IMG/VR virus record: IMGVR_UViG_3300020074_000055
Span: 1 to 36,767 of that record
Source of the DNA: a virus
Direction: 5' to 3' (one strand)
DNA: 36,767 bases
The notes beneath the pieces are model-generated. The model saw only the letters and a list, made by a program, of their open reading frames with translations. It ran no database searches and had not been told where the DNA came from. Both the position numbers and the translations under genes were made by a program. Below are positions 202 through 29,946 of this stretch, in pieces; position 1 is the first letter of the stretch; every line of letters begins with the position of its first letter.

Positions 202-3200
202 TTATTGTATATTATATTCAATGTCAGTATCAAGATTTGATGTAATTACAACAACAACCGGTCCACCGTCTGGCGTTACTGCAGGTATACAATCTTGGTT
301 TATTGCTTCATTATTTTTTCCACGAAGTTTTGTTCCAATAAATCTATGATTTTTTATACCAGTTGGTAAATTTTCAGATTTACGATAATCTGTTGATATT
401 TTTTCATAAGATGTTGGTGCTTCCATATTGTAACTTAATATGGTTGCATATCTTGGATCAAATTTTTGATAATAACTATCATCTCTGTATCTATCTATTT
501 GTTGATAGTAAGCAGTTTTTCTTTCTTTAGCATTATACCCAATTGAAGTTAAATTTTCAAAATCTATTCTATTTGAACGCAATGGAATAATGGATAATAT
601 TCCAGTTGGAGAATAAAACATATTTGATTGAACACTTATCTTTGATGATTTTGCAATCAATGTAGTTTCAAGTGAACTAATACTTGGTAGTATTGACTTA
701 AATGTTGATTGTATTTTTGTTTTAATAGTTGGTTTATATTGACTTTCAATTTTTTTGAATTTTGGAGTAATTTTTGCCTTTTTTCTAAATTGTATTTTAG
801 GTTTTACTTCAGCTTTTATATCTCTATCACCTTCAATATCATCAACTACAACACTAAAATTAGTTTCAACATCATATTCACCTTCAACATTTGCAATGTT
901 ACTTCCAAAGTTTTCTTCAAATCCAATCAATAAAGTTGATTTTTTTCTTGAAATAGATACTGCCGGTTTTGGTGCCTTATCCAAAACATTAGTATCAACT
1001 ACATTTACATTTTCAGCAGAAAAATCTCTATTTACTTTTACTTTTGAGCGTTCAAGAACATTTGGTTCTACAACCACACCTAAAATTTCATTTGTTCTTA
1101 ATGGTAATGTTTGACGAATTTGATCAAATACACTAAAATCAAATTTTGCAATTAAACGAATATATGCAGTAAAATCATTTTTGTTTGGATATTTTTTCCA
1201 GTATTCTCTTGCAAAATGTTTTAAGTTTACATATTCATCGGAATTTACAGCAGAGTATTCACCAAAATAATCATCAAGTGTTGTATATCCTAATGCCTCA
1301 TATATGTCTTCATTTATTATATGGTTTGGTGAAAATGCAACCATCAATTTATTTGTATCAATAGAAAATTTATCAAAATTTGAAACGGCAAATGATTCAT
1401 CAACTTTTAATGGAGCAAGTAATGATGCGGAGTCAATTCGGATTTTTTCTGTAAACGGTGTGTTATTTCCTGCAGTTACAATTTCCATATTATATGTTTC
1501 AACAAAACTTTCAAATGCACCGGAATCAAATCCATAAAAATAAGCATTTTTTGAAGAACTATAAAATGTATTTTTTGTTTGGTCTGGATGTGAACTTTGT
1601 ATACTTGTTGTAACTGCAACATCAAATTTTTGCCAAAATTTCCATTGTGCCTGTAAATCATAGAAAGAGGATGTTGGTGTATTACCATTGTAAGCACGAG
1701 CAGATAACACATGGTTATTGAAAGAAGTTTCATTTAATTGTTTTGCCCAATATCTCAATTCAAAAATTGAACCTGAAAGTATATTATTTGTTTGTGTATT
1801 TGATCCAGAACCAATGTATAATTGTCCACTTGATACCCATGCACGATTGTAATTTGATTCGGTGCTTCCAGTTACGGATATACTAGCAGACCTTTCTATT
1901 ACAACTTTTCCGTATTTTTCAGTTTTAACTATAAAATCATAAATTTGATTTGAAGAAGAATTATCATTTGTATATCTTCTTTTAATCATTAAATTTAATG
2001 GAACATCATCATAGAAATAATCATCGTTTATTGATGCACTTTTGTAACTACTACCATTTCCTAAATAAAAAGTTAAACTTCCTTTTTCAATATCAGTTCC
2101 ATTTTTATTTGCAGTAACAAACCAATCCACTCGACTACCACTTTGTTTTTGCAATACAGTTTGTATTGGATCCAAATCATATTTATACATTTTGTTTGGT
2201 TCCATTTTCCAACGAAATGTTAATGTATCTGGATATTGCCAATTGCCATCTTCATTGTTAATTTGTTCCCACGGAACTTCAACATAACGATTTGTTGTTG
2301 GTAGCGGATAACTTCCTGAAAAATTTAGATAATAAGTTTGTTTTTCAAATTCTGTTCTTGGTGTTTCACCGAAATCGGCATTATCTGGACCACCGTATTC
2401 TCTTATACTTAAAAGAGTTTTTGGTATGCCATAAGCAGCAAGTAATGCCCGTATTCCTCTTGCAGTTCCTTTTGTTTTGTAAATATATGGTAAATTATTT
2501 AGTATTCTACGCCAAACTTCTTTTGTTCTTTCTTCTTCTGTTTTTGCAAGGTATTTGTTTGTAGTTACTTTTCCAGACCAAATTGGTTCGCCACTACCAC
2601 TTAAACCAAGTGCATATTCCCAAAGGTCTTTTGCTTGTGTTCCATGTGATAATGTCCAACCTAAATTTTTTGCAGTTTCATATATTAAATCTTGTGATAA
2701 TCCGTCTTTTGGATTTTCTTTTCTTTGATTTTTTTTCAAAATATGGTCGGTATACAAATATATTATATCAAAATGTTGTCCAATCATATTTACAAAAACT
2801 GTAAATTCATCGTTATCTTCGTCATCTCTTAAAAATTCTGGTATTGCTTTATTGAGAGAGTTGTAATTTTTTAAATCATAGTTACTCGCAGACTCATATA
2901 AGTTATCATACCAATTTTGTCCTTCGGCAGATAATGTTGAATATAAACCAAATTTACCCTCTTTTGTTGCTATATTGTAATTACTTGCAGTTATATCCAA
3001 TTCATATTTTGGAAATGGTGTAATTGTTGATGATAGTTGTGATGTGTAATAATTACTACCGGTGGTTTCGTAATACATCCATTTTTCAAATTCATCAAAA
3101 CCACCAATTACCTTATCCCTTAAATTTGTAACTTTAATAACATTAGCATCAACGGAACCCGTATATGTAGATAATAAAACAAGTTGTGTGTTGTAATTTT

Positions 3201-4214: not shown

Positions 4215-5285
4215 TTAAATTGGGAATATCTTATCAATTGCCTGTTCAGCAGTATCAGTAGACAATACAGATGCCGCCTTTCTATTTGCCTCATTTATTT
4301 TGAAGGTTGAAGCATTAGCATCATTTCTAGCAGAATTTGATTGATCAATCGCATCATCTGCTGTATCTTGTGCATCTCTAATTTCTCCATCTTGTCTTGT
4401 ATTATCAACACTTATATCTTTTACATCACTTGCTAGACCAGTAACAACCGCCTGTGTAGTTGCAACATCGGATTGAATATTAGTGATTTCGTCTCTTTGG
4501 TCTGCAACATCAAGTAATGCTTCTTTTAATTCTTCAGCAGCTTTTGCAGATTCTTCTCTTTGTTTAATAACTTCCAATTCGGTTCTGAAAAGTGTTTCAT
4601 CTGCCTGTTGTTGTAGTGAAACTTTTGCTTCTCTTTGTTTTTCTGCAGTTGTTAAAGCATTTGCCCTCTCTGCACTAACGGATGAAAGAACATCATCAAA
4701 ATTAGAAATGGTTTGTAATTGATCACTAATAATAGAGTCTTTTCTAGCGTTTTCAGATTCAAGTTCGGAAATTCTAACTTGCAAACCACCTATTGTATTA
4801 TCACCTGCATTTGTTAAGTTATTTACTTTTGTTAAAAATTCTTTTTTTGCCAATTCACGAATTTGTTGATCATTTAATCCAGCTGGTAATGGTTTTCCTG
4901 TTATTTTTTCAAATTCACCTGGTAATAAAGCTCTGTTTTGTATACTTGATATTTTATTAAATACACTTTGTTCAGCGCTAATTGCGTCTGGTAATGACTT
5001 AAATTTTGTATCTATTATTCGTGTAAAATCACTACGAACATATCTACCGTCAAGAACAGCAACTTCTATAGATCCAAAGTTTTGAATTTCACTTTGTGGA
5101 ACATAACTTATTATACGGCCATTTAACTGATCTCTTTTTAGCATATTTATCATATCACTACCGAGTCTACCACCTGGAGTAAGGAAAGGAGGTGGTGGCG
5201 CTGGTGGAGCCGGTGGAACACCAGGAGGCGCTGGTGGAGCCGGTGGAACAACAGGAGGCGGCGGTGGAGTAGGTGATGAATACAT
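4215..5285 (-). CDS. Proline-rich, coiled-coil tail protein
   Basis: The 356-residue product begins with a Pro-rich stretch (residues 5-35, repeated PPAPPAPP), followed by a short globular part (about 40-165) and a long heptad-rich coiled coil (about 170-340, many E/K/A/Q residues). No enzyme motif is visible. It starts 2 nt after the stop of the upstream tail gene and lies 14 nt before the gpI-like gene, so it belongs to the tail operon. A trimeric fibre, whisker or connector role fits the coiled coil but is inference. The Pro-rich tract is coded by a 30-nt GC-rich repeat that is far from the base composition around it, and it matches, inverted, the Gly-rich repeat of the endolysin gene at 13081-13161. 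Confidence 0.7.
   Translation of the reverse strand: MYSSPTPPPPPVVPPAPPAPPGVPPAPPAPPPPFLTPGGRLGSDMINMLKRDQLNGRIISYVPQSEIQNFGSIEVAVLDGRYVRSDFTRIIDTKFKSLPDAISAEQSVFNKISSIQNRALLPGEFEKITGKPLPAGLNDQQIRELAKKEFLTKVNNLTNAGDNTIGGLQVRISELESENARKDSIISDQLQTISNFDDVLSSVSAERANALTTAEKQREAKVSLQQQADETLFRTELEVIKQREESAKAAEELKEALLDVADQRDEITNIQSDVATTQAVVTGLASDVKDISVDNTRQDGEIRDAQDTADDAIDQSNSARNDANASTFKINEANRKAASVLSTDTAEQAIDKIFPI
5197..5247. repeat. GC-rich 30-nt tandem repeat, two copies
   Basis: GGCGCTGGTGGAGCCGGTGG occurs on the plus strand at 5197-5216 and 5227-5246, with period 30. It encodes the PPAPPAPP tract on the minus strand. The same sequence appears in inverse orientation at 13094-13114 and 13121-13141. 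Confidence 0.9.
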
Positions 5286-5287
5286 AG

Positions 5288-6457
5288 TTATCGTGTAACC
5301 TTAAAGTAATAATTGTTATCAAAAATTTGGACATTATCACCACCATCTGTTTCTACTTTCAAAACTATACGATAAAATCTTTCTGGTTGAAATGCATTCA
5401 TCCAAACATTAAAGTAACTACTTGTTCCATCACAACTAATTTTTGAACCAGTGTAATTAAATGGTAGTATTATTTCATCCGTATGTGCATCTCTAATTTC
5501 ATAATAAGATGATGATGGTAGATAATAATTTACAGTATGATACGATTGAGTTGTATAATTTTTTTGTGGATATTTTGTATTTGCATAAATTTTTACTTTT
5601 GCTTTTTCATCTTGTGAATAAAACTTTTTTAATTTCAAATTTATATTCATATTACTATCAGTTATTGGACTCAAACTTCCAGTAATAAAAACAGAATCAT
5701 TCCAAATAACATGCAATCTTGGAACATATATTGTATTACTATCTGTTCCAAAAAATTTCAAACTGTTTAATGTATCTAATGAACTTTCAATATCATTACT
5801 AAATTTAAGTATAAAACCATCATTTTCAAATCTACCAGAACCAGTAACCCATTTTTTTACTATCTGTGTAACATCCATATACAAATCACTTGTCTGAAAA
5901 GAAAATGATTGTGTGCATTCAATATTATCATAATCCCACCATGTTCCTCCACCTTCTTTTGAGAAATATGATGACGTAACATTTGCAGATAAATTTGAAC
6001 CAAATAATATGGCAGCATCAACCCATGTTTGTGAAATACTATCCCATTCCAATGAGGATGTTGCAGGCGGTACATCCCATTCTGTTCCAACAGTTTTTGA
6101 AGTTCTATATTTCCAAGAAACACCGTCTGTTGAAAATGGATTATTAAAAAATCTACCAGTTCCATTTGTCCATGAAGAACTTACGGGATATGCATAAACA
6201 TCATATTCTTGTGGTATTTCTCTTACATCTGCTGTTCTCAATGATAAATAGTATTTTGCATTATTTGATATTTTACCTGCATTTATTTTTTCTTCAATTT
6301 CACTAATATCAAATTTTATTAGTATTCTACTATTGTATTTGGATGCAGTTCCAACTAATTCATGGGATAATTCTAATAATGAATCAAGACCTGAATTTTT
6401 TGATTCGGTTTTTTCATAAATTGTTGCATCTTTTTCAGCATATATCGAATATATCAT
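5288..6457 (-). CDS. Beta-rich tail protein, DNRLRE/CBM-like
   Basis: The 389-residue protein opens with YAEKDATIYEK and continues with SRILIKFDIS, a layout typical of DNRLRE-type or CBM-like jelly-roll modules in which a beta-sandwich starts with 'D-ATIYE' and a conserved LIKFD strand. Residues about 1-245 form this module, and about 255-389 look like a second beta domain (VKIYANTKYPQKNY, FYRIVLKVET). No catalytic motif is seen. Its ATG overlaps the stop of the gp6-like gene by 4 nt (ATGA), so translation is probably coupled. A baseplate-peripheral or receptor-contact role is likely by context. The family match is from memory and moderate. Confidence 0.65.
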   Translation of the reverse strand: MIYSIYAEKDATIYEKTESKNSGLDSLLELSHELVGTASKYNSRILIKFDISEIEEKINAGKISNNAKYYLSLRTADVREIPQEYDVYAYPVSSSWTNGTGRFFNNPFSTDGVSWKYRTSKTVGTEWDVPPATSSLEWDSISQTWVDAAILFGSNLSANVTSSYFSKEGGGTWWDYDNIECTQSFSFQTSDLYMDVTQIVKKWVTGSGRFENDGFILKFSNDIESSLDTLNSLKFFGTDSNTIYVPRLHVIWNDSVFITGSLSPITDSNMNINLKLKKFYSQDEKAKVKIYANTKYPQKNYTTQSYHTVNYYLPSSSYYEIRDAHTDEIILPFNYTGSKISCDGTSSYFNVWMNAFQPERFYRIVLKVETDGGDNVQIFDNNYYFKVTR

Positions 6458-8349
6458 CCAAATGCCCTCACTCTACCAATAATATCATTATCGGGATATT
6501 TTATTTCAAAAATAGATGGATCAAGTGACGGAAATATAATTCCATCTTTTGTTGCTTGTGGTATATTGTAAGCATTAGAAGAATATCCTAATGTTTGATC
6601 GTATAAATTATTTATTTTTACATCAACAACAGTTTGGACACCTTCTACTTTATCAAGTTCCGTATAAACATTACTGATAATAATTGGTTGGTTTATCTGC
6701 CATTTTTTTGTATTAAAGTATTGTTTTAATTTGTTTATACAACGAAGAACAACTTGGTTTGAATTTTGATCAGGAAATATGATTATATCAAATTCAATAC
6801 CGATGTTTATTATGTAAGCGTCACGAATGTTAATTGCATCCGTAAGCATTCTATAATGATTTAGATATGTTTTTAGATTTTCTTTTGTTGCATTATTTAC
6901 AGTAGTTAATTGTTTGTTAGCATCATACCCTAAAACATAAAAATTTAATGCTAAATCATTTTGTACCCGTTCACTATTAAAAATTGCTTCGGATATTAAC
7001 TGTGTATCTTTTGTAATATATGCTTTAGCGATAGAACCATATTTTGAAGGCAAACTATATGCACGAATTATGTAATCTTCTTTTGTAACAGCACGATTTT
7101 GAGCAGCAAAAGAAGCAAGTGCATTTTGACGAATTTCGTTTATTCCTTCTGCTGTTTTTCCACCAGTAGCTGGTACAGAATTTGTTACCGCAAGACTCGA
7201 TACCACTTGGTTGTATAAAACATTATCTAATCCAGTTTCATCAAGTAATATATTTCTGCTAATTACTCTTGTTAAAACATCACTTTGAACATTATCATCA
7301 ATACCTTTTCCAATAGTATAATGAATAGTTAGTGTTGTATTGTTTGGAGCAAGACCATATGTTTTTGTATAGAGAAAATTTGAAGGATCAATATCAATTG
7401 AAGTATTTGCTTCTAAACCAGTTAATGATGAACCAACTAAATCTGGATTTGGAATAAGAACTTCATCATCTAAATCAGCAACACCTGCACCGAATTGTAT
7501 TTCATATGATCCCAAATCAACAGTTCTTGTTGTAAATCTTCTAGCAACTTTTTTAAGTTTTAATAAATAAGGTGTTTCTGTTCTGTGTTGTGATAGGGTT
7601 TTATCATTTCTTGAAACGTTAATAACGGAATCAAAAATAGTATCTTGTGCTAAATATGGAACATGATGCCATACGTTTCCATCCGAGTCAATTGCATATA
7701 AAACTTCAATCATATCCAAATCTTGTAAAACAATTTTATCATAGGGTTTTGGATCTGTAAATTCGTAATCTACTGTTTTTATTGTTCCCGAAACAGCTTT
7801 AACTGATTTTTTTAATAACCAAAATAAAACTTCACCACTTCCATTTACTTCAAAAGGAGTTACTTCGGTTGGATCATTAGGACTACTAAACTTAAAATCA
7901 ACAAAATCAACTGTTCTAAACTCAATAGTATTAAATCCACCGCCGGTTGTTCCAACAACCATACCCGGTTCTATTGCAAATGCATACGCATAATCTGGTA
8001 CAATTTCACCATCAACTGTTTTTGCAGGAACTATTTGAAATATATCCAATACAACATTTGATGCAATTCTATTTTTTGGTTTATATCCCAATGATTGTGC
8101 CAAATTTAATATATTTGTTCTTTCACTAGAATGTAATATCATTGATTCTTGTAATGTAACATCGGTGTAATACGATAATACATCACCAACATAAGCGGCC
8201 ATTTCCAAAAACATCATACCCGGAGATGTTTCATTAAAATCTTGGTATGTATTTGGAAAGTAATTTTTAGCAAAATCAATAAGATTTTGTTTAAGAGAAG
8301 AAAAATCTCTTGATAAATAACGAATGTCTTTTTTTACCAAATCAGCCAT
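6454..8349 (-). CDS. gp6: Baseplate wedge protein, gp6 / baseplate-J family
   Basis: The 631-residue product shows the conserved N-terminal signature of T4 gp6-like wedge proteins: residues about 8-25 (RYLSRDFSSLKQNLIDFAKN), then SPGMMFLEMAAYVGDVLSYY and RTNILNLAQSLGYKPKNR. The middle contains KTAEGINEIRQNALASFAAQ and RAVTKEDY, characteristic of baseplate-J proteins. In T4, gp6 dimers form the inner iris of the baseplate and join wedges to each other. The preceding gene is gp25-like, the same order as in many T4-like phages. An SD-like GAGG lies upstream of the ATG at 8349. The length is close to that of T4 gp6 (660 residues). Confidence 0.92.
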   Translation of the reverse strand: MADLVKKDIRYLSRDFSSLKQNLIDFAKNYFPNTYQDFNETSPGMMFLEMAAYVGDVLSYYTDVTLQESMILHSSERTNILNLAQSLGYKPKNRIASNVVLDIFQIVPAKTVDGEIVPDYAYAFAIEPGMVVGTTGGGFNTIEFRTVDFVDFKFSSPNDPTEVTPFEVNGSGEVLFWLLKKSVKAVSGTIKTVDYEFTDPKPYDKIVLQDLDMIEVLYAIDSDGNVWHHVPYLAQDTIFDSVINVSRNDKTLSQHRTETPYLLKLKKVARRFTTRTVDLGSYEIQFGAGVADLDDEVLIPNPDLVGSSLTGLEANTSIDIDPSNFLYTKTYGLAPNNTTLTIHYTIGKGIDDNVQSDVLTRVISRNILLDETGLDNVLYNQVVSSLAVTNSVPATGGKTAEGINEIRQNALASFAAQNRAVTKEDYIIRAYSLPSKYGSIAKAYITKDTQLISEAIFNSERVQNDLALNFYVLGYDANKQLTTVNNATKENLKTYLNHYRMLTDAINIRDAYIINIGIEFDIIIFPDQNSNQVVLRCINKLKQYFNTKKWQINQPIIISNVYTELDKVEGVQTVVDVKINNLYDQTLGYSSNAYNIPQATKDGIIFPSLDPSIFEIKYPDNDIIGRVRAFG

Positions 8350-8363
8350 TTGTAACCGCCTCT

Positions 8364-8858
8364 TTATTTATTTATTATTGACTCTTTAATTTCTAAATTG
8401 CCTGTGTCATCAATAAATATCTGAATTGGCAAATATATGTTTGTTCCACCTATTTTTACAGTTAATTTTATTTCAACTGAATGGTCTTTTTCAACAATAT
8501 AATCTTGTTCACTTGGTATTATTGTTTCCAATTCTTGTATTACAAGATATGGCATCCATTCTTGAATTGCACTTTCAATTTCACCGTTTATTCTATTGAA
8601 AAAATCTTCTTCATTTGTAATGTTTTCAAATAGTATAGTTCTAATATCTGTTCCAAATGTTGGCAACATATATCGTTCACCACGAGCAGTCAATAACAAA
8701 TTTTTAAGATTTGAAAGAACTTGTTTTACATTAGTAAAACTTTGAAAAAATACACCATTTGGATTGTTAAACGGTATAGTTATACCAATTGGTCTTGCAT
8801 ATTTTAAGTTTGGAACTGCAGTATTTACAATTTCTCTTTTTCTACGGTAAAATGACAT
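8364..8858 (-). CDS. gp25: Baseplate wedge protein, gp25/GPW family
   Basis: The 164-residue protein carries the gp25/GPW signature: LSNLKNLLLTARGERYMLP (about 49-67), then FGTDIRTILFEN and the C-terminal sheet VEIKLTVKIGGTN. In T4, gp25 sits at the core of the wedge and contacts the sheath initiator; the old name 'gp25 lysozyme' is not supported by an active site. The start ATG (8858) has GGGAGATGATAA in front of it. The stop lies 14 nt upstream of the gp6-like start, and the unknown 139-residue gene ends 3 nt before this start, so the three are one translational unit. Confidence 0.92.
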   Translation of the reverse strand: MSFYRRKREIVNTAVPNLKYARPIGITIPFNNPNGVFFQSFTNVKQVLSNLKNLLLTARGERYMLPTFGTDIRTILFENITNEEDFFNRINGEIESAIQEWMPYLVIQELETIIPSEQDYIVEKDHSVEIKLTVKIGGTNIYLPIQIFIDDTGNLEIKESIINK

Positions 8859-8861
8859 TTA

Positions 8862-9281
8862 TCATCTCCCTTTTTTTTCTTCTATCTTTTTCATAAGAGC
8901 AGAATAATCTTTGGTTAAAGCAGACATTACTTCGTCTGGTATTTGATTTGGTGTATAACCTTGTGGAACTGCACCAGTATTTTGTCCAAAATTTTGAGCC
9001 ATATCGGCAGTAAACATAAATTCACCTTCCATATCTGCACTTTCATTTAGTGTTCTACGCGTTTCTTCCAATAAATCTTGTATAGAATTAAAATTTATTT
9101 TTGATTGTATTGGTTTTTTTACTGTTTTTTGAGCTTCTGTATAAAGAGACATACCGTGTTCAATTGCACGTTTTTGCGAAGGTTTACTTGCTTCTTTTTT
9201 TGTCACCTTTTTTTCCAAAGCAATTTCAATTTCTTCACGGATTATTTCTCTAATTTTTTTGAAAAAACCATTGCTGTCCAT
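8862..9281 (-). CDS. Small charged protein of the baseplate operon, unknown
   Basis: This 139-residue product has a charged helical N-terminus (FFKKIREIIREEIEIALEKK), a linker and a Gln/Asn/Pro-rich patch (about residues 100-120), then a Lys/Glu-rich tail. I do not recognise the family. A GTG at 9284 could also start it, but AAAGGTGATGTG puts the SD at better spacing for ATG 9281. It lies just before gp25, so a baseplate assembly or wedge subunit role is plausible by context only. Confidence 0.6.
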   Translation of the reverse strand: MDSNGFFKKIREIIREEIEIALEKKVTKKEASKPSQKRAIEHGMSLYTEAQKTVKKPIQSKINFNSIQDLLEETRRTLNESADMEGEFMFTADMAQNFGQNTGAVPQGYTPNQIPDEVMSALTKDYSALMKKIEEKKGR

Positions 9282-9330
9282 CACATCACCTTTATATTGT
9301 TAATTGTTTATGTAAATAAATATAATAATT
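9282..9330 (-). promoter_or_regulatory. Short leader with TATATTTATTTA motif
   Basis: On the minus strand the sequence TATATTTATTTAC lies about 30-40 nt before the start at 9281. It belongs to the recurring TATTTAT set seen upstream of late genes, and is a candidate late promoter. Confidence 0.3.
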
Positions 9331-12300
9331 TTATCTTCCATCCCAAAGTTTAGGGTAGTTTCCAGGTTTTCTAGTATCTGTTTTATATGAAAAATGCCAA
9401 ACTTCATTCCAATATGGATACCAACCAAATTGCATACCATTTTTACGAATCCATAATTGTGCCGTAGTAGCATTTGCTTGATGGTATCTCTCTATTGCTT
9501 CTAGGTTTTTCGTTCCCGCTCCACTTCCTGTTTTGCCTCTTGTATCTATCGCTCTCCCTTGTTGGTGTGGTCCACCAGCTTTTTCACCTTTCAGATTATG
9601 TTTGCCCATAGGTGGAGCTACTAACGAAGTGTCACCATTTATTGAATTAAATCTTCCGCCGGGTGTTACATAACTACCAGCATAGGGTCTCCAAACATCA
9701 ACTTGTCCTTGCTGAGTTCTAAATGAATCACTTATCATCAATAATTTGCCTCCAAGATTTCCTTTTACATCTGCACCTGGAGTAGGAGTCGGCAAAAGTC
9801 CTGAAGCAAATCCGGCTTCAAACATTCTAATCACTGCAGCTACAGCAGGTGTTGCTAAGTAATTATCACCAGTATTTCTTCTATATTTTGGAGGAATTGC
9901 TGTTAAAATACCTCTTGCTAATGCATCTTTTGGATCACCCAAAACAGTTTTACCATCCCCTCCACCTGCACCAGTTTGTGCAGGTTGGTTATGGCTTGCA
10001 GCAATTTTATCACCAATACTTTCTCCATTTGGTATTGGATCCGGAGCAGGTGCAGCTGGTTTTTTTGAAATATATGGAACAAGAGTATTATACATTCTTC
10101 CTGTTAATTTTCCAGGTTCTTTGTCTATTCTCTCATAATAATCCTTATAGATAGAACTAACGTAAATTTTTGAATCCAATCCACCCTCTCTATGTCCATC
10201 TGGTGCAGATTTTACATTAGATATAAATACTGCTCCATGAACCCATGCATCATTTGCAATTTGAGTAAATTCCTTAAAATTTGTTTCTTTTATTGCAATA
10301 TGATGTCCTGATGATGCAGATGAATCTGCACCTTTTGGTGTTGTGTTTCCTCCAATAGTTACCATTCTACCAAATTCATCAAGAAATATCAATACTTCAG
10401 CATATAACTGACTATTTTGAACAGTATGATGCTTTACTGCTGAAATTACACCTATTTTCCAATTTAATTTTATTAGTTGTTTTAATAGTTTTTCACCTTT
10501 TGGTGTAATTCCACCATCTTTTGTAAAATGAAAATCTGGAATAAAAATAGCAATATTACCGGAATCTTTAATCAATTCTTCTGAATTTAAGTTAGCAGGA
10601 TCTAACCAAATTTTACTTGGTTTGAAAACATTATCTTGTGTTCCTGCCGATTTCAAGTCTTTCCATTTCCACTGTTTATTTCCAGGATAATTTATCAATT
10701 TTTCTTTTTTTAGTATTTCTTCGTGGTAATTATTTATGTTTCCCTCTATACTTGTTGATAGTAATGCATATCCAGAATGTTTAAGACAATGATTAACCCA
10801 AATACCAGACCATTTTGGCCAATTTCGCCATGATGAATCTAAATTTTTTTTCTCAATTACATTAGTATTTGCAGATTTACCTATTCCTATTTGACTTTTT
10901 CCATTTGTAATTATAGATCCATCTACTATTGTCATATGTAATTCATTACCAGCTTCAAAAATATATTCTATATTATTATTATAGACACCAACATCGTATA
11001 CATTCAAAAGTATTGGTATGTCCAAAAAAGATTCAATACTTTTTTGGCCTTCTATTAAATTTTTCCATTTTCCAAGTATTGTTGGATTTTTTTCACGAGA
11101 TCCATCGGTTGGTGATGCTGATCCAGTCATTTCTGGAGGTGGCCAGTATGGTATCAATCCAGCAATTAAACTTGTTCCTGTTGGTGATGTAACAACATTT
11201 TCATTTTCTTTATATCCAAATCCTGGACCTTCATCTGGTCGCCATCCCCAATATCTTTTGTGATATTTATTTTCTTTTTTAACCATATCTGCAAGTGACA
11301 TTGGTTGATTATCTTTTAATGGAACTAAATAAAACCTATGGTTATACTTACCATCTGCACTAACAGGAGCATCATTTTTTGAAGGTGGTAGTGGATCTTT
11401 ATCAACACCATCAGCACCTTGTGGACTTTCATTTGCCTTCGCCTTTGCATCTAATTTTGTTAAATCACCACAATCATTTCCAGATGTTACTGGTTGACCT
11501 GATGTGTCATCTGGTGTTCCACCGTCTTGTCCTCCGCCACCGCCATCATTTACACCCTGTGTGCCGTTTGTTCCAGATGTTCCTGTTGTTCCAGATGTTC
11601 CTGTTGTTCCAGAAGTTCCTGTTGTTTCACCAGGATTAGTAGGTGGGTTTGATGATTGTGCGGTATTATTTACCGGAACATTATTCAAAATATAACTTGC
11701 CATAGCATTTGGAAGACCAGAATGTGAAGTTGCACCAAATGGTTTGTCTATAAAATGACCACTTTTTGCAGCATCTTTTAATTTTTTAGTTGCAGGAACT
11801 CCAGTTCCATCTTCACCGGAAGAAAAATAATATACTTTATCTGGATATTTTACAAGATGGCTAGCAATTCTATCAACTGATTGTAAAATTGTATCTCTTC
11901 CTGGATCACCTTGTCTAGAATAAACACCACCTATTAAAATTAAATCCCATTTTTCATAACCACCGCCAAATTCGTCAATTGCTATTTGATATGCCTCACA
12001 ACCTTTTGAAAATGCAACAATAATGTGTTTGGTTGGAGATATGCCATTATCCGATAGAATTTTTTTACATTCCGCAGTTCCTCTTTTTATACCATTACCA
12101 TCAACTTTTTTTTGTGATTTACCACTTACAATTGCAACTTTTGTTAAATTGTAAACATTAAAATCTGCACATCTACTAAAACCTTTACTATACCCACCTG
12201 CACTACTATTATTTGTTCCCCACATATATTCTCCTGGAAAAACAACAGGTGTTTTTGGATTTGTTGGAACACCCACACCACCTACTAAAAAAATAAGTGG

Positions 12301-12381
12301 AGCATTCAAATCTTTTATAGATGATTTGAACGAACCGTATTCAAAATTTTTATCTATTCTTGGTTCTTTGGGCGCTGCCAA
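9331..12381 (-). CDS. Giant multi-domain tail hub lysin (hydrolase-like, amidase-like, M15 peptidase)
   Basis: The 1016-residue protein has four visible parts. (1) Residues 25-235 look like an alpha/beta hydrolase: candidate nucleophile Ser125 in VAFSKGCEAY, acidic GEDG near 190, and His220 in GATSHSGLP. (2) Residues 252-280 are collagen-like GTS/GTT triplets. (3) Residues about 510-720 resemble CHAP/DUF2272-type amidases (WSGIWVNHCLKHSGY, later MVTIGGN and SGHHIAI). (4) Residues 875-1005 are an M15 (VanY-like) peptidase: HQQGRAID supplies His939 and Asp946, and NEVWHFSY supplies Glu993 and His996, the zinc ligands and general base of that family. It probably sits at the tail tip and digests peptidoglycan on entry. 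The start is TTG, with AGGAG six bases upstream. Parts 1 and 3 are less certain than part 4. Confidence 0.8.
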   Translation of the reverse strand: MAAPKEPRIDKNFEYGSFKSSIKDLNAPLIFLVGGVGVPTNPKTPVVFPGEYMWGTNNSSAGGYSKGFSRCADFNVYNLTKVAIVSGKSQKKVDGNGIKRGTAECKKILSDNGISPTKHIIVAFSKGCEAYQIAIDEFGGGYEKWDLILIGGVYSRQGDPGRDTILQSVDRIASHLVKYPDKVYYFSSGEDGTGVPATKKLKDAAKSGHFIDKPFGATSHSGLPNAMASYILNNVPVNNTAQSSNPPTNPGETTGTSGTTGTSGTTGTSGTNGTQGVNDGGGGGQDGGTPDDTSGQPVTSGNDCGDLTKLDAKAKANESPQGADGVDKDPLPPSKNDAPVSADGKYNHRFYLVPLKDNQPMSLADMVKKENKYHKRYWGWRPDEGPGFGYKENENVVTSPTGTSLIAGLIPYWPPPEMTGSASPTDGSREKNPTILGKWKNLIEGQKSIESFLDIPILLNVYDVGVYNNNIEYIFEAGNELHMTIVDGSIITNGKSQIGIGKSANTNVIEKKNLDSSWRNWPKWSGIWVNHCLKHSGYALLSTSIEGNINNYHEEILKKEKLINYPGNKQWKWKDLKSAGTQDNVFKPSKIWLDPANLNSEELIKDSGNIAIFIPDFHFTKDGGITPKGEKLLKQLIKLNWKIGVISAVKHHTVQNSQLYAEVLIFLDEFGRMVTIGGNTTPKGADSSASSGHHIAIKETNFKEFTQIANDAWVHGAVFISNVKSAPDGHREGGLDSKIYVSSIYKDYYERIDKEPGKLTGRMYNTLVPYISKKPAAPAPDPIPNGESIGDKIAASHNQPAQTGAGGGDGKTVLGDPKDALARGILTAIPPKYRRNTGDNYLATPAVAAVIRMFEAGFASGLLPTPTPGADVKGNLGGKLLMISDSFRTQQGQVDVWRPYAGSYVTPGGRFNSINGDTSLVAPPMGKHNLKGEKAGGPHQQGRAIDTRGKTGSGAGTKNLEAIERYHQANATTAQLWIRKNGMQFGWYPYWNEVWHFSYKTDTRKPGNYPKLWDGR
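11546..11626. repeat. Collagen-like (GTS/GTT) repeat in the hub lysin gene
   Basis: An 18-nt unit, GTTCCTGTTGTTCCAGAT/A on the plus strand, repeats about three times and encodes Gly-Thr-Ser/Thr triplets on the minus strand. Its flank at 11546-11577 is identical over 32 nt to 15992-16023 in the spike gene, so the module has moved between the two genes. Confidence 0.85.
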
Positions 12382-12421
12382 TTATTTCTCCTTTACTATT
12401 TAATATAAATAGATTTTTGTG
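12382..12421 (-). promoter_or_regulatory. Leader with CTATTTATATT motif before the hub lysin
   Basis: On the minus strand CTATTTATATTAAATAG precedes AGGAG and the TTG start. It is one of the recurring TATTTAT candidates for a late promoter; the 40-nt gap holds no gene. Confidence 0.3.
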
Positions 12422-13453
12422 TTATATTGCACCTAAAATTTTTGCAAACTCTAATGTAAATTTTTCTCTTTTATCTTGGTGAACAGGAACTGAATTTACA
12501 GTTAATGAAACTGCTTTACAATTTGCAGAAGAAAAACCAGCATCAGCTTTTTTTAATGTACCTCGACTTGAACAATAATGTCCAGCTGATGCAGGAGACA
12601 ATTCACCTGCAACCAAATCTGAATTTGTCAATATGTCTTGTCTGTTCATTGAATTAGCAAACGATTTGTAATTGGATTTGCCTGTTAATTGAATCCACCC
12701 TTTGCCTCTAAATCTGAAACCGTCACCTGTTTCTTCTGAACCATTTCCTAGTTTATTAGCATATATTATATTTGCAATTTTTTCAGGATTTCCTATAAAT
12801 TGTGCAGCTCTATTTCCTCTCGTACTACCAAATAACTTAATCAACGACGCAGGTTTTGTGTAATTAGTATTTTCCGATCTTGGTATTATCAAACTACATT
12901 CAGTTTTACATTGACCTAAAAAATGTGCCATTCTAACATTAGTATTAACATTATATTTTTCAACACAAAGAATAAGACCAGAAAAGGCATTGGGTGGAAC
13001 ATGACCTTTTAATTTACCCAAATCCACTTTTCCAGCTTTAACTGGTATTGGAACTTCTACTGGTGGACTACCAGTTCCACCAGCGCCTCCTGCTCCACCG
13101 GCTCCACCAGCGCCTCCTGCTCCACCGGCTCCACCAGCGCCTCCTGCTCCACCGGCTCCACCACCTGAAGTTGCAGTTCCACCTGTATTATCGGAGCTTA
13201 AACATGGTGATTTTGATACACTACTTGAACCAGCTCTATATGTATCTGCTGTTTCAGCTGTTAATGTTTTATATGCTTCACGATTCATTAAATCATCAGA
13301 CCAATCTTCTTCTCTAACATCAGTTAAAGCAACTTCTGCTTCTTCATCGGATATTACAACATTTTCTAAAAGTTGTGCCCTATAAGCACCAACAAAATTA
13401 TTTATGTCTGGTTCAGCTTCTATTTCTTCTCTATCAGCATCAGTTAATGCCAT
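12422..13453 (-). CDS. GH19-family endolysin with Gly-rich linker
   Basis: The 343-residue protein has a charged N-terminal part (1-90), a Gly-Gly-Ala linker (about 97-123) and a C-terminal GH19 (chitinase/lysozyme-like) domain. Diagnostic stretches are MAHFLGQCKTECS (Glu182, the usual acid in AHExG-type motifs), the ENTNY block, then IANIIYANKLGNG and GDGFRFRGKGWIQLTG. Phage GH19 enzymes cut the peptidoglycan glycan strand. Its place inside the tail operon, next to spike and hub lysin, suggests a virion-associated lysin rather than a late holin-partner endolysin, though both are possible. The start is set at ATG 13453, which has GGAG at 7-nt spacing; an in-frame TTG 12 nt upstream lacks support. 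Confidence 0.85.
   Translation of the reverse strand: MALTDADREEIEAEPDINNFVGAYRAQLLENVVISDEEAEVALTDVREEDWSDDLMNREAYKTLTAETADTYRAGSSSVSKSPCLSSDNTGGTATSGGGAGGAGGAGGAGGAGGAGGAGGAGGAGGTGSPPVEVPIPVKAGKVDLGKLKGHVPPNAFSGLILCVEKYNVNTNVRMAHFLGQCKTECSLIIPRSENTNYTKPASLIKLFGSTRGNRAAQFIGNPEKIANIIYANKLGNGSEETGDGFRFRGKGWIQLTGKSNYKSFANSMNRQDILTNSDLVAGELSPASAGHYCSSRGTLKKADAGFSSANCKAVSLTVNSVPVHQDKREKFTLEFAKILGAI
13081..13161. repeat. Perfect 27-nt tandem repeat, three copies
   Basis: Three identical 27-nt units (13081-13107, 13108-13134, 13135-13161) encode the (Gly-Gly-Ala)n linker of the endolysin. They are GC-rich in an AT-rich gene and have no sequence drift, so the expansion looks recent. They contain, inverted, the repeat of the Pro-rich tail gene at 5197-5247. 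There are no spacers, so this is not a CRISPR array. Confidence 0.93.
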
Positions 13454-13465
13454 AATAATCTCCAA

Positions 13466-15258: not shown

Positions 15259-17607
15259 TTATTCAACAAAAATATTTGTTGCACCCGTAAATTCTTTTAT
15301 CATTTCTTTGTCTAATAAAACACCATCATCGTCAAAATAATTATTTTGTGATCCAACAGATATTGTTCCACCTGTAATTTTTAATTGGGTCATTCCTGCA
15401 AATATAGTATCATTTTTCAAATCACAATCTCTTGCTACAACTCTTTGGAAAGCCCATCCAGTATAATCACTTGGTAGTCCAACCAAAGATTTTAGGTTTA
15501 CATTACCACTACATTCAAATTGAGCTTTATCTCCAAATTTTGTAGGTGCTCCAGTTAAACTATTCAAATTATTATATCTAACATCCATACCTAATTTAAC
15601 ATATTCAGGACCACCCACAAGATTTGTTATACCAGTTTTCTTACATCCAAAAAATTCTACTCTTTTAGGACCACCAACAAGTGATTTTAAGTCACGGTTA
15701 TCATCACAGAAGAATTTTTCTGCCTCTTGTGGTGCATTTACAAGTGATTTTAATTTACAATTACTTACTATAAATGATCCTTTTACCTTCCCAAAAGGTA
15801 TTGGGATTTCATATAAATCTGGTCCAGTTGTGGATTGAACTTTATTTAATATATTTTTACCAACAAATGATATACTACCATCATAATCCCACTTACCATT
15901 AACAAATTTCATTTTAGTCTTATCTACACCCATTTGCTCAAATGTTATACCATTTGGATTTGTTGATGAAACTGTTCCTGGAATTACATTTTCATTTACA
16001 CCCTGTGTGCCGTTTGTTCCAGAAGTTCCTGTTGTTCCAGAAGTTCCTGTTGTTCCAGAAGTTCCTGTTGTTCCAGAAGTTCCCGATGTACCAGAAGTTC
16101 CCGATGTACCAGATGTATCTTGACTATTTGGATCAATATTTACAGGTGCAGGATCTGTTGAAACGCCGGATTTTTCTGATATTTCTTTTAGTATTTTTTG
16201 TTTTTCTTCTTCAACTTTTTTAATATCAGTCAGTATAGTCACAACATTAGTTGGTTGAGGATCTTCTGGTTCAGCAGCTAATGAATCTGCTCTATCACCA
16301 CCATGTTCACTTGTTGGTGTTGGTTCAACATACCCTTTATCACTATCTGCCCTTTCTTCCGCTTTTTCTTGTTCCGCTGCACTTGGTCCACCACCAGATT
16401 CACATACAAAAACTAAATCACTTGGTAAATTTTTTAATGATGATCTTAACGATTTTATTTTTGATTTTACTAAATTAAATGCGGCAGCATTTATTGGTGG
16501 ACCAGATGGTCCTGTTCCCGTTGGATGTGTTTGATTTGATATATTTGTGCATAAATTTGCCAATGCGTCACATAAATCACCAAGCCATTGAAGTGTTCTA
16601 TCCCCCATTAAAACAGGAGAAACTGCATTTATACCCAAATTTATTCTCTGTGATTCTAACTCTACTACCTGTCCACCATCAATAGTAACACCTTTGTTTG
16701 AAGATAATCCTATACCTTCCGAACTAAATGCCATAATTTCTTGTTTTCGTGCATTTAGTATAATTCTATCAGAAGCCATGAGAATTTGATTTCCTGAAAA
16801 GGCATTTGCACTATGAAGATCAACACTTCTATTTGTTGCAGCATCCTTGTATTCGGATGCAGGTGTAAAGTTTAATGCTTGACCAGATGTCATCCAAATT
16901 GCAGAATCATCTTTATCTGGATCTTCAAGTATAAATTCATTGAAAGGTTTTGAATCTGGATTGGTTCCATTTGATATTATTAGTATTGGGTTTCCTGTAT
17001 CACCCAATCCTTTTTTCCATAATGGTTTTTGTGGATATTCTCGTCTTTCATCAACGGTAGAACCAAATCGTATTGATTGTCCCCATCTACCTTCTATGAT
17101 AATATCTCCAGGAAATGGTTGTATTGGGTAAACATCATTTCTTTCTGGAAATCCTGGATCTATTGTCTTATTTACATTTAGTCTTGATGTTACTTGTGCA
17201 GTAACACCATCTTGTGCATTTTCTCTAGCACTAGGACTGGTATTTAGTGCAGATTTACCCATGTCAGTTATTCCTGGCAAACCATTGTGGTGTATTGAAC
17301 TCTGCACAGAAACAGGATTTGTATAATAGTATTCTTGACCAGTTCTTAATGCACTATTATATGCAGTTGGTGCTTTTAATAACATAACAACTTCGCCCTT
17401 TATGGGTATATTTTTTATGTTAGCATCAAGTGCACGAGCGGCAACTACATTATTATTTGCTTGAGAGCCAAATGCACCAATCAATTTACATTGAATTGTA
17501 TACAATTTCTCTTTACTCTTTCCATCAAAATCAACAGCAACTACCTCTGCAGGTATATTCTCATAGGTCTGGCCGTTGATTTGGGTCTTTTGTGGATCTA
17601 GTGCCAA
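15259..17607 (-). CDS. gp5: Baseplate central spike, gp5/VgrG-like, with collagen and LRR modules
   Basis: The 782-residue protein starts with an OB-fold-like domain (about 15-110), followed by a segment around [17 protein letters not shown] and TNPILI-type strands typical of gp5-like spikes. Residues about 270-335 repeat [15 protein letters not shown] and [16 protein letters not shown], a spike beta-prism pattern. Collagen-like GTS/GTT triplets fill about 498-533 and leucine-rich repeats about 600-715. The lysozyme domain of T4 gp5 is absent; that activity may come from the two neighbouring lysins. The TTG at 17607 is used because no in-frame ATG lies nearby and GAGG lies about 10 nt upstream; this overlaps the preceding gene by 47 nt. 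Role: membrane-piercing trimer at the tail tip. Confidence 0.8.
15992..16112. repeat. Collagen-like (GTS/GTT) repeat in the spike gene
   Basis: About five 18-nt units of the GTTCCTGTTGTTCCAGAA type, then two variant units with CCCGATGTACCAGA, encode Gly-Thr-Ser/Thr triplets on the minus strand. The first 32 nt (15992-16023) are identical to 11546-11577 in the hub lysin gene. Confidence 0.87.
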
Positions 17608-27603: not shown

Positions 27604-27650
27604 TGTTTTCCCTTGTTGAAAATAATAACTATAATAAAAAATTTCAAAAA

Positions 27651-27685
27651 TTGCTTGCTTCGTATCAAACTATTTCTTATATTCG
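27651..27685 (+). promoter_or_regulatory. Host-type promoter P1 of the plus-strand block
   Basis: TTGCTTGC (27651-27658), a 19-nt spacer, then TATATTCG (27678-27685) precede the DUF4494-like gene. The pattern fits the Bacteroidota -33 TTG and -7 TAnnTTTG elements. Confidence 0.6.
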
Positions 27686-27729
27686 TATCAAATATAATCA
27701 TTTTATTTCACATTTCCAAAGGAATTGTT

Positions 27730-28427: not shown

Positions 28428-28479
28428 TAGACTTAGCGTAACTCCTTAAAAATCAACGGTTTACAAATTATTTTCATTA

Positions 28480-28514
28480 TTGCTTTGATCTTACAAAAAA
28501 ATGCCTTATATTTG
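28480..28514 (+). promoter_or_regulatory. Host-type promoter P2
   Basis: TTGCTTTG (28480-28487), 19-nt spacer, TATATTTG (28507-28514). It is the first of two near-repeats upstream of the 28652 gene, with ATGACAACC downstream. Confidence 0.6.
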
Positions 28515-28575
28515 TAATATGCAATGATGACAACCAAACAAACAAATATGAACATTGTTACAATTATTTCAAAAA

Positions 28576-28610
28576 TTGCTTTGATCTTAGTTGGCAATGC
28601 CTTACATTTG
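28576..28610 (+). promoter_or_regulatory. Host-type promoter P3
   Basis: TTGCTTTG (28576-28583), 19-nt spacer, TACATTTG (28603-28610). It is the second of a tandem pair, 96 nt after P2, with ATAACAACC downstream. Confidence 0.6.
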
Positions 28611-28651
28611 TATTGTAAACTGATAACAACCACATATTCAAGGATCTCAAA

Positions 28652-29598: not shown

Positions 29599-29885
29599 TT
29601 GACACCCCACAAGGAAAATGGTACACAGTACCAGAAGTTGCAAAAATTCTCGGATGTTCATTCCAATATGTTCGCCGTCTTACAAATGGAAGAACCCGAA
29701 AATATCAAAGTTACAAAATACAAGAGAAACCCGTAGTTGATCAAACTCTTGTTATGAAAATTCAGAAAGAGAACCAAAAGAAAGTAAAATATATGGTTCA
29801 CGAAGATGCAGTTAAGTTTTTGGTAGATAAGAAATTATCTAAAATTAACAAAAAAAATCAAAATAATGCTTTGATCTCTCAATAA
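29595..29885 (+). CDS. Helix-turn-helix DNA-binding protein (MerR/excisionase-like)
   Basis: The 96-residue product has a winged-helix start of the excisionase type: WYTVPEVAKILGCSFQYVRRLTNG (about 9-32), with a basic C-terminal part. Such small proteins act as Xis/recombination factors or as regulators. It overlaps the Lys-rich gene by 4 nt and has AGGAGAAAGAA before ATG. Promoter P4 begins inside its last codons. No integrase lies in the window, so a regulator is as likely as an Xis. Confidence 0.7.
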   Translation: MIDTPQGKWYTVPEVAKILGCSFQYVRRLTNGRTRKYQSYKIQEKPVVDQTLVMKIQKENQKKVKYMVHEDAVKFLVDKKLSKINKKNQNNALISQ

Positions 29886-29900
29886 AATGCCTTATATTCG
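29866..29900 (+). promoter_or_regulatory. Host-type promoter P4 of the MoxR gene
   Basis: ATGCTTTG (29866-29873), 19-nt spacer, TATATTCG (29893-29900). It starts inside the HTH gene and shares AATGCCT with P2 and P3, plus AACAACC downstream. Confidence 0.6.
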
Positions 29901-29946
29901 TATATGTTAAAAAACAACCTTATTCATTTCTTACAGGAATTGTTCT

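Follow-up and report, generated by a model that had tools for sequence, protein, structure and literature searches.

Glycine-rich repeats that lie between structural domains and vary in length by whole repeats are known from the collagen-like Gly-X-Y tracts of phage tail and prophage fibre proteins (e.g. PMC3368898), and modular phage endolysins, with their exchangeable GH19 and CHAP modules, likewise join a conserved adaptor through a linker to a swapped lytic domain. Small segments can also stand in frame within genes for unrelated proteins, as the Rickettsia palindromic elements or coding MITEs of about 105-146 bp do (PMC2229807), and in the coding palindromes of Nematomorpha mitochondria both arms of an inverted repeat code for protein (PMC6649704). 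The phage locus described here resembles each of these systems in the respect just named, but departs from each in another. It differs from collagen-like tracts in that a DNA-level inverted copy between genes appears to be involved and the product is rich in Pro instead of Gly; against the Pfam Collagen model, a 782-aa gene of this phage scored 24.9 bits, below the 27.2 cut-off, and its lysin gave no match. The 141-nt segment studied here is, as with coding MITEs, an in-frame insertion in a protein gene that is absent from relatives, but it lacks terminal inverted repeats, belongs to no dispersed multi-copy family and has a coding linker as its probable source. The Nematomorpha palindromes are long and perfect, lie within genes and have arms in conserved regions, whereas here an imperfect arm connects the low-complexity linkers of two distant genes. 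Set beside modular endolysins, the locus shows ordinary modularity, with the putative inverted copy of the linker elsewhere as the sole unusual point. The literature that we consulted on inverted duplication, intragenomic linker exchange, tail-fibre duplication and antisense peptides from repeat expansions, which took in few of the subscription journals, yielded no phage case among the titles listed.

Two GC-rich linkers in a baseplate module

The window, by which we mean the whole 36,767-nt stretch of viral DNA that was analysed, comes from a lineage of freshwater phages; among isolates, Microcystis phage Mel-JY01 is the closest in gp6, at 70%. The region of interest is a myovirus-like baseplate module with gp25 (GPW_gp25), the gp6 wedge, a 389-aa CBM96-like protein whose similarity to CBM96 falls below the cut-off, a 356-aa coiled-coil protein (ccP) and a 1332-aa protein. 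Outside the module, a 39-48-nt motif (TTGCTTTGATCTT...TGCCTTATATTTGTA) occurs four times between small genes (28470-28612, 27641-27688 and 29864-29902) and is possibly an early promoter. Features of the two linker-bearing genes and of a second linker pair are collected in Table 1.

Table 1 Positions in the window of the two genes, their shared segments and a direct linker pair
Feature	Position	Strand	Basis
Right member of 10-nt target-duplication-like pair, GATAAATATG	5142..5151	-	sister sequence GATAATTATG
Ancestral start codon of ccP, ATG of MLKRD, internal in the window	5142..5144	-	start position in relatives
In-frame insert of ccP, 141 nt = 47 codons, MYSSPTPPPPPVVPPAPPAPPGVPPAPPAPPPPFLTPGGRLGSDMIN	5145..5285	-	absent in relatives
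ccP, 356-aa coiled-coil baseplate-region gene with Pro-rich N-terminal extension	4215..5285	-	ORF, 20-member alignment, AF2
ccP arm of inverted homology, 81 nt, ~30-nt repeat unit (tandem period 30), reads PPAPPAPP	5188..5268	-	alignment to lysin linker, score 47.5
Exact 26-mer, copy 1	5222..5247	+	exact sequence match
Left member of 10-nt target-duplication-like pair, GATAACTATG	5283..5292	-	9/10 identical to 5142-5151
GTSG linker of hub gene (9331-12381), direct copy	11546..11629	-	96% over 84 nt with 15992-16075
Lysin slot gene: adaptor, Gly-rich linker, GH19-type endolysin module	12422..13465	-	PHROG 181, PDB endolysins, shared adaptor
Tandem array coding (GGA)n, 27 nt x 3.3, units 100% identical	13076..13163	-	tandem-repeat analysis
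Lysin arm of inverted homology, 75 nt	13076..13150	-	alignment to ccP insert
Exact 26-mer, copy 2, inverted	13094..13119	-	exact sequence match
Exact 26-mer, copy 3, inverted	13121..13146	-	exact sequence match
GTSG linker of 782-aa gene (15259-17607), partner of hub linker	15992..16075	-	96% over 84 nt

The lysin slot gene, whose true start is likely the ATG at 13453, matched the PHROG 181 endolysin at E=1.7e-36 and phage endolysins of the PDB at E values down to 8e-16; tblastn found GH19 endolysin similarity in 731 phage records, and the score against the curated Pfam Glyco_hydro_19 model was 15.6 bits, below the 25.5 cut-off. An earlier note on this DNA had labelled the product a hub lysin, a label that calls for refinement, since the slot gene encoding the lysin is distinct from the hub gene and lies upstream of it. 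Its adaptor (QLLE...DWSD...SPC) is conserved in the window and in relatives L040, L046, L048, L108 and L129, and the lytic domain that occupies the slot is exchangeable, being of GH19 type in the window and CHAP in L040 and L046. The sisters L108 and L129 combine a closely related adaptor and a GGAGGAG linker with another C-terminal module that has no Pfam or PHROG match.

The earlier note had reported that one 26-mer, CAGGAGGCGCTGGTGGAGCCGGTGGA, recurs exactly and inverted between these two genes, and we found it once in ccP and twice in the lysin linker at precisely the positions given there. It is read as PPAPPAPP in the 356-aa gene and as GGAGGAGG in the lysin, also as described, and the contrast between GC-rich tracts (69-73% GC) and AT-rich surroundings (32.6% across the window) was confirmed. 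A further, imperfect copy that is 23/26 identical lies at 5192-5217. The 26-mer proved to be only the core of a more extended inverted match, itself imperfect: the reverse complement of the ccP insert could be aligned with the lysin linker along 81/75 nt, three repeat units being in register and the indels 3 nt long.

The same note had raised the possibility of inversion between the repeats at the two ends of this 8-kb segment, and we considered whether they are recombination sites for a flip of the kind seen in phase variation. The repeats do flank the segment, but gene order and orientation were the same in all four independent assemblies covering both sites, the exact arms measure just 26 nt and, to judge from the sequence, inverting the segment would break both genes, since the body of ccP and the catalytic domain of the lysin would each be parted from the start codon. 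We therefore consider such inversion extremely improbable.

Coding constraint, chance and other sources

The 26-mer arose in none of the dinucleotide shuffles, but we rejected these as too weak because PPA codons, when reverse-complemented, match GGN-GGN-GCN everywhere but at the wobble positions, and used instead nulls in which the amino acids were fixed and synonymous codons were redrawn or shuffled. Under these nulls, amino acids alone yielded inverted words of 11-14 nt, and a shared inverted word of at least 26 nt appeared in 0-0.8% of trials, depending on the null, which leaves some room for convergence, that is, for two independent low-complexity tracts matching through the complementarity of GGA and PPA coding outside the wobble positions and through the use of few codons. 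Short Gly tracts of unrelated phages point the same way, one in a halovirus reaching 96% identity over 26 nt, and since such convergent tracts exist the claim of common origin rests on the full-length match. Against convergence, the full 81/75-nt score of 47.5 was reached in 0 of 12,000 synonymous nulls (3 x 4000; null maximum 46), and the rare codons CCG, GCG, GGC and GCC coincide in register between both arms. Most of the match follows of necessity from the Gly and Pro patterns, and the evidence lies in the wobble positions and the repeat register.

Database comparisons gave a similar picture. In 67 stretches with a length of at least 8 kb, most of them from related viruses, no inverted exact word exceeded 17 nt, as against 26 nt in the window. 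The 26-mer was confined to the window's lineage among 2.9 million viral contigs and occurred in 0 of 84,980 prokaryote genomes, and a related 137-kb contig carries it at these three sites only, so that it is not one of many such repeats scattered through the genome, an outcome that the earlier note had named as fatal to its own proposal. In view of these results, we regard convergence as quite unlikely. We also considered an RNA duplex between the ccP and lysin transcripts as a means of regulation and rejected it; the predicted energy was -168.6 kcal/mol, with the nulls averaging -140.8, and such a value is not evidence of function because every GGA/PPA pair is strongly complementary.

A common origin does not by itself name the lysin gene as donor, and the insert might have come from an inverted Gly-rich tract of another phage or another gene, or both tracts from a common donor. 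The ends of the insert (MYSSPT..., FLTPGGRLGSDMIN) are not present in the lysin, and a degenerate pattern for them matched only the window's own lineage among viral contigs, while a search of phage records gave no match; in addition, at least four genes of this phage have Gly tracts, and GGA tracts occur in the sister hub genes of L024 and L129. In all searches, however, the insert matched the lysin linker of the same phage best, at 85 bits, whereas the best match in 50,697 phage records (2.3 Gb) reached 61 bits in a single piece from an unrelated Pseudomonas phage. As donor we also tried, and rejected, a fourth Gly-rich gene near 79 kb of the 137-kb contig, whose tract scored only 19. A third source is thus unlikely.

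Insertion into ccP and probable direction of the copy

In a 20-member alignment of ccP, residues 1-45 stand ahead of the conserved start region in the window's row only, and an AlphaFold2 model left residues 1-47 unstructured, with a helix at 165-337 and a mostly helical body (pTM 0.27). The insert is absent from L022-L025, which are 78-80% identical in ccP, and all more distant homologues checked start at or beside the ancestral ATG (MLKRD or MIKRD) without a Pro tract; relatives free of the tract amount to some 11-12 lineages when near-identical contigs are counted once. More diverged homologues with a different N-terminal domain likewise lack it. Near-identical contigs of up to 137 kb have both tracts as in the window, and on the 137-kb contig the full insert is present in one copy, with the lysin linker as the only other strong match. 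Since the contigs that carry the insert are essentially one population, a single event is seen. As a separate observation, the ccP homologues of L046 and L048 (13074-14663) contain a stretch rich in Pro and, at the C-terminus, an additional repeat domain similar to the one in the 592-aa gene.

A search for terminal inverted repeats found no inverted pair of 8 nt or more in 5135-5300. The insert is flanked by a 10-nt start-context pair of 9/10 identity, for which the chance probability is about 0.25% given the ATG, the pair having been spotted post hoc; it looks like a target duplication.

Relatives also bear on which tract came first. The gp25 encoded by L108 and by L129 is identical, over the overlap, to that of L025, a sister contig without the Pro tract, and the Gly-rich lysin linker is thus found in sisters whose lineage lacks the Pro tract, indicating that the Gly linker predates it; the two observations come from separate contigs joined by lineage through the identical part of gp25, none of the sister contigs reaching across both sites. 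In alignments to the insert, the window's own linker scored 47.5, above that of L129 (31.5) and that of L108 (23.5), and this best fit places the copy in the window's lineage. The opposite order, in which the Pro tract arose first and was then copied inverted into the lysin linker, draws some support from the 27-nt unit of the window's linker, which is not that of the sister lysin linkers. Yet the sisters with a Gly-rich linker at the same site belong to a lineage in which the Pro tract is missing, that tract represents the derived condition, and among the relatives compared we saw no lineage that pairs a Pro tract with a non-Gly lysin linker. We accordingly hold the reverse order to be very unlikely.

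The earlier proposal that one gene gained its linker as an inverted copy of the other's is supported by these comparisons, and the relatives add a direction, from lysin linker to ccP; nor do they reveal two tracts of unrelated origin, since they are without the Pro tract and the Gly linker is the older. Most probably, then, the lysin linker or its immediate ancestor was copied inverted into ccP in the window's lineage and gave rise to the Pro tail. Best supported within this reading, as shown by sequence comparison, are a common DNA origin beyond amino-acid constraint, the absence of the insert in relatives, the Gly linker in sisters and the keeping of the frame.

The proposed course of events would begin with an old, fast-changing Gly-rich linker between the conserved adaptor and the exchangeable lytic domain of the lysin. 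From this GC-rich linker, or from its immediate ancestor, some 80 nt would have been copied inverted to the start-codon region of ccP, 8 kb away; alternatively, the copy may have comprised one unit that was duplicated afterwards. The likely route is template switching or microhomology-mediated repair during phage replication, in which about 10 nt at the start site would have been duplicated, and small changes or tandem duplication may have followed. Read on the opposite strand and in a shifted frame, GGN codons become CCN, so that one of the three antisense frames of Gly-Gly-Ala spells Pro-Pro-Ala; the insert can therefore be read in frame and without stops, as a disordered N-terminal tail of 47 residues rich in Pro, behind which the rest of ccP would have stayed intact. 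The tail may serve as a flexible spacer and is possibly neutral.

Linker sharing among baseplate genes

Linker DNA is also shared in direct orientation within this phage group. The 84 nt common to the hub gene and the 782-aa gene of the window include a non-repetitive flank, GTNGTQGVN, and the match was reached in 0 of 2000 synonymous nulls; the sister L108 does not share it. In L129, the linkers of hub (8104-11226) and lysin (6727-8043) are both of the GGAGGAGGTDGG type, whereas the hub linker of its close relative L108 is GTSG-type, which suggests a recent exchange between the two genes; synonymous nulls reached this sharing of GGA-type tracts in 20/1000 and 4/1000 trials, so that it is suggestive only. 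Exact direct repeats within Gly-rich tracts at distant sites were further found in the L034 group (27 nt, at 2606 and 5480 of L034) and in L095 (81 nt, at 1700 and 5609, a candidate pair located by position). A further gene, in L126 at 2161-3018 (near 79 kb of the related 137-kb contig) and outside the baseplate module, codes for a collagen-like GTGGTSG stretch some 70 residues long.

Taken together, these cases suggest that linker DNA passes from one baseplate gene to another in this group of phages, for the most part without inversion; direct sharing recurs, and the inverted copy is the unusual case. A more general process, in which low-complexity linker DNA is copied between neighbouring baseplate genes regardless of orientation and inverted copies turn Gly-rich into Pro-rich tracts, is a tentative possibility that we would not put forward as the probable one. 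If it were true, direct copies would be frequent and inverted ones occasional, and new disordered tails would arise regularly from the antisense of Gly linkers.

In-frame insertion and linker duplication are both already known; what is found here is one event, in one lineage, in inverted orientation. The locus offers a small but clear case in which one DNA segment appears to have supplied two unrelated protein linkers, and a well-polarised one, with outgroups, a donor candidate and an insertion point, of a protein segment that probably derives from the strand opposite another protein's coding sequence. One rule that it suggests is that Gly-rich linkers, when copied inverted, read as Pro-rich in one of three frames and are usually free of stops. 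Because protein comparison is blind to such events, the linkers of phage baseplate genes would be worth comparing at the DNA level within a genome, on both strands.
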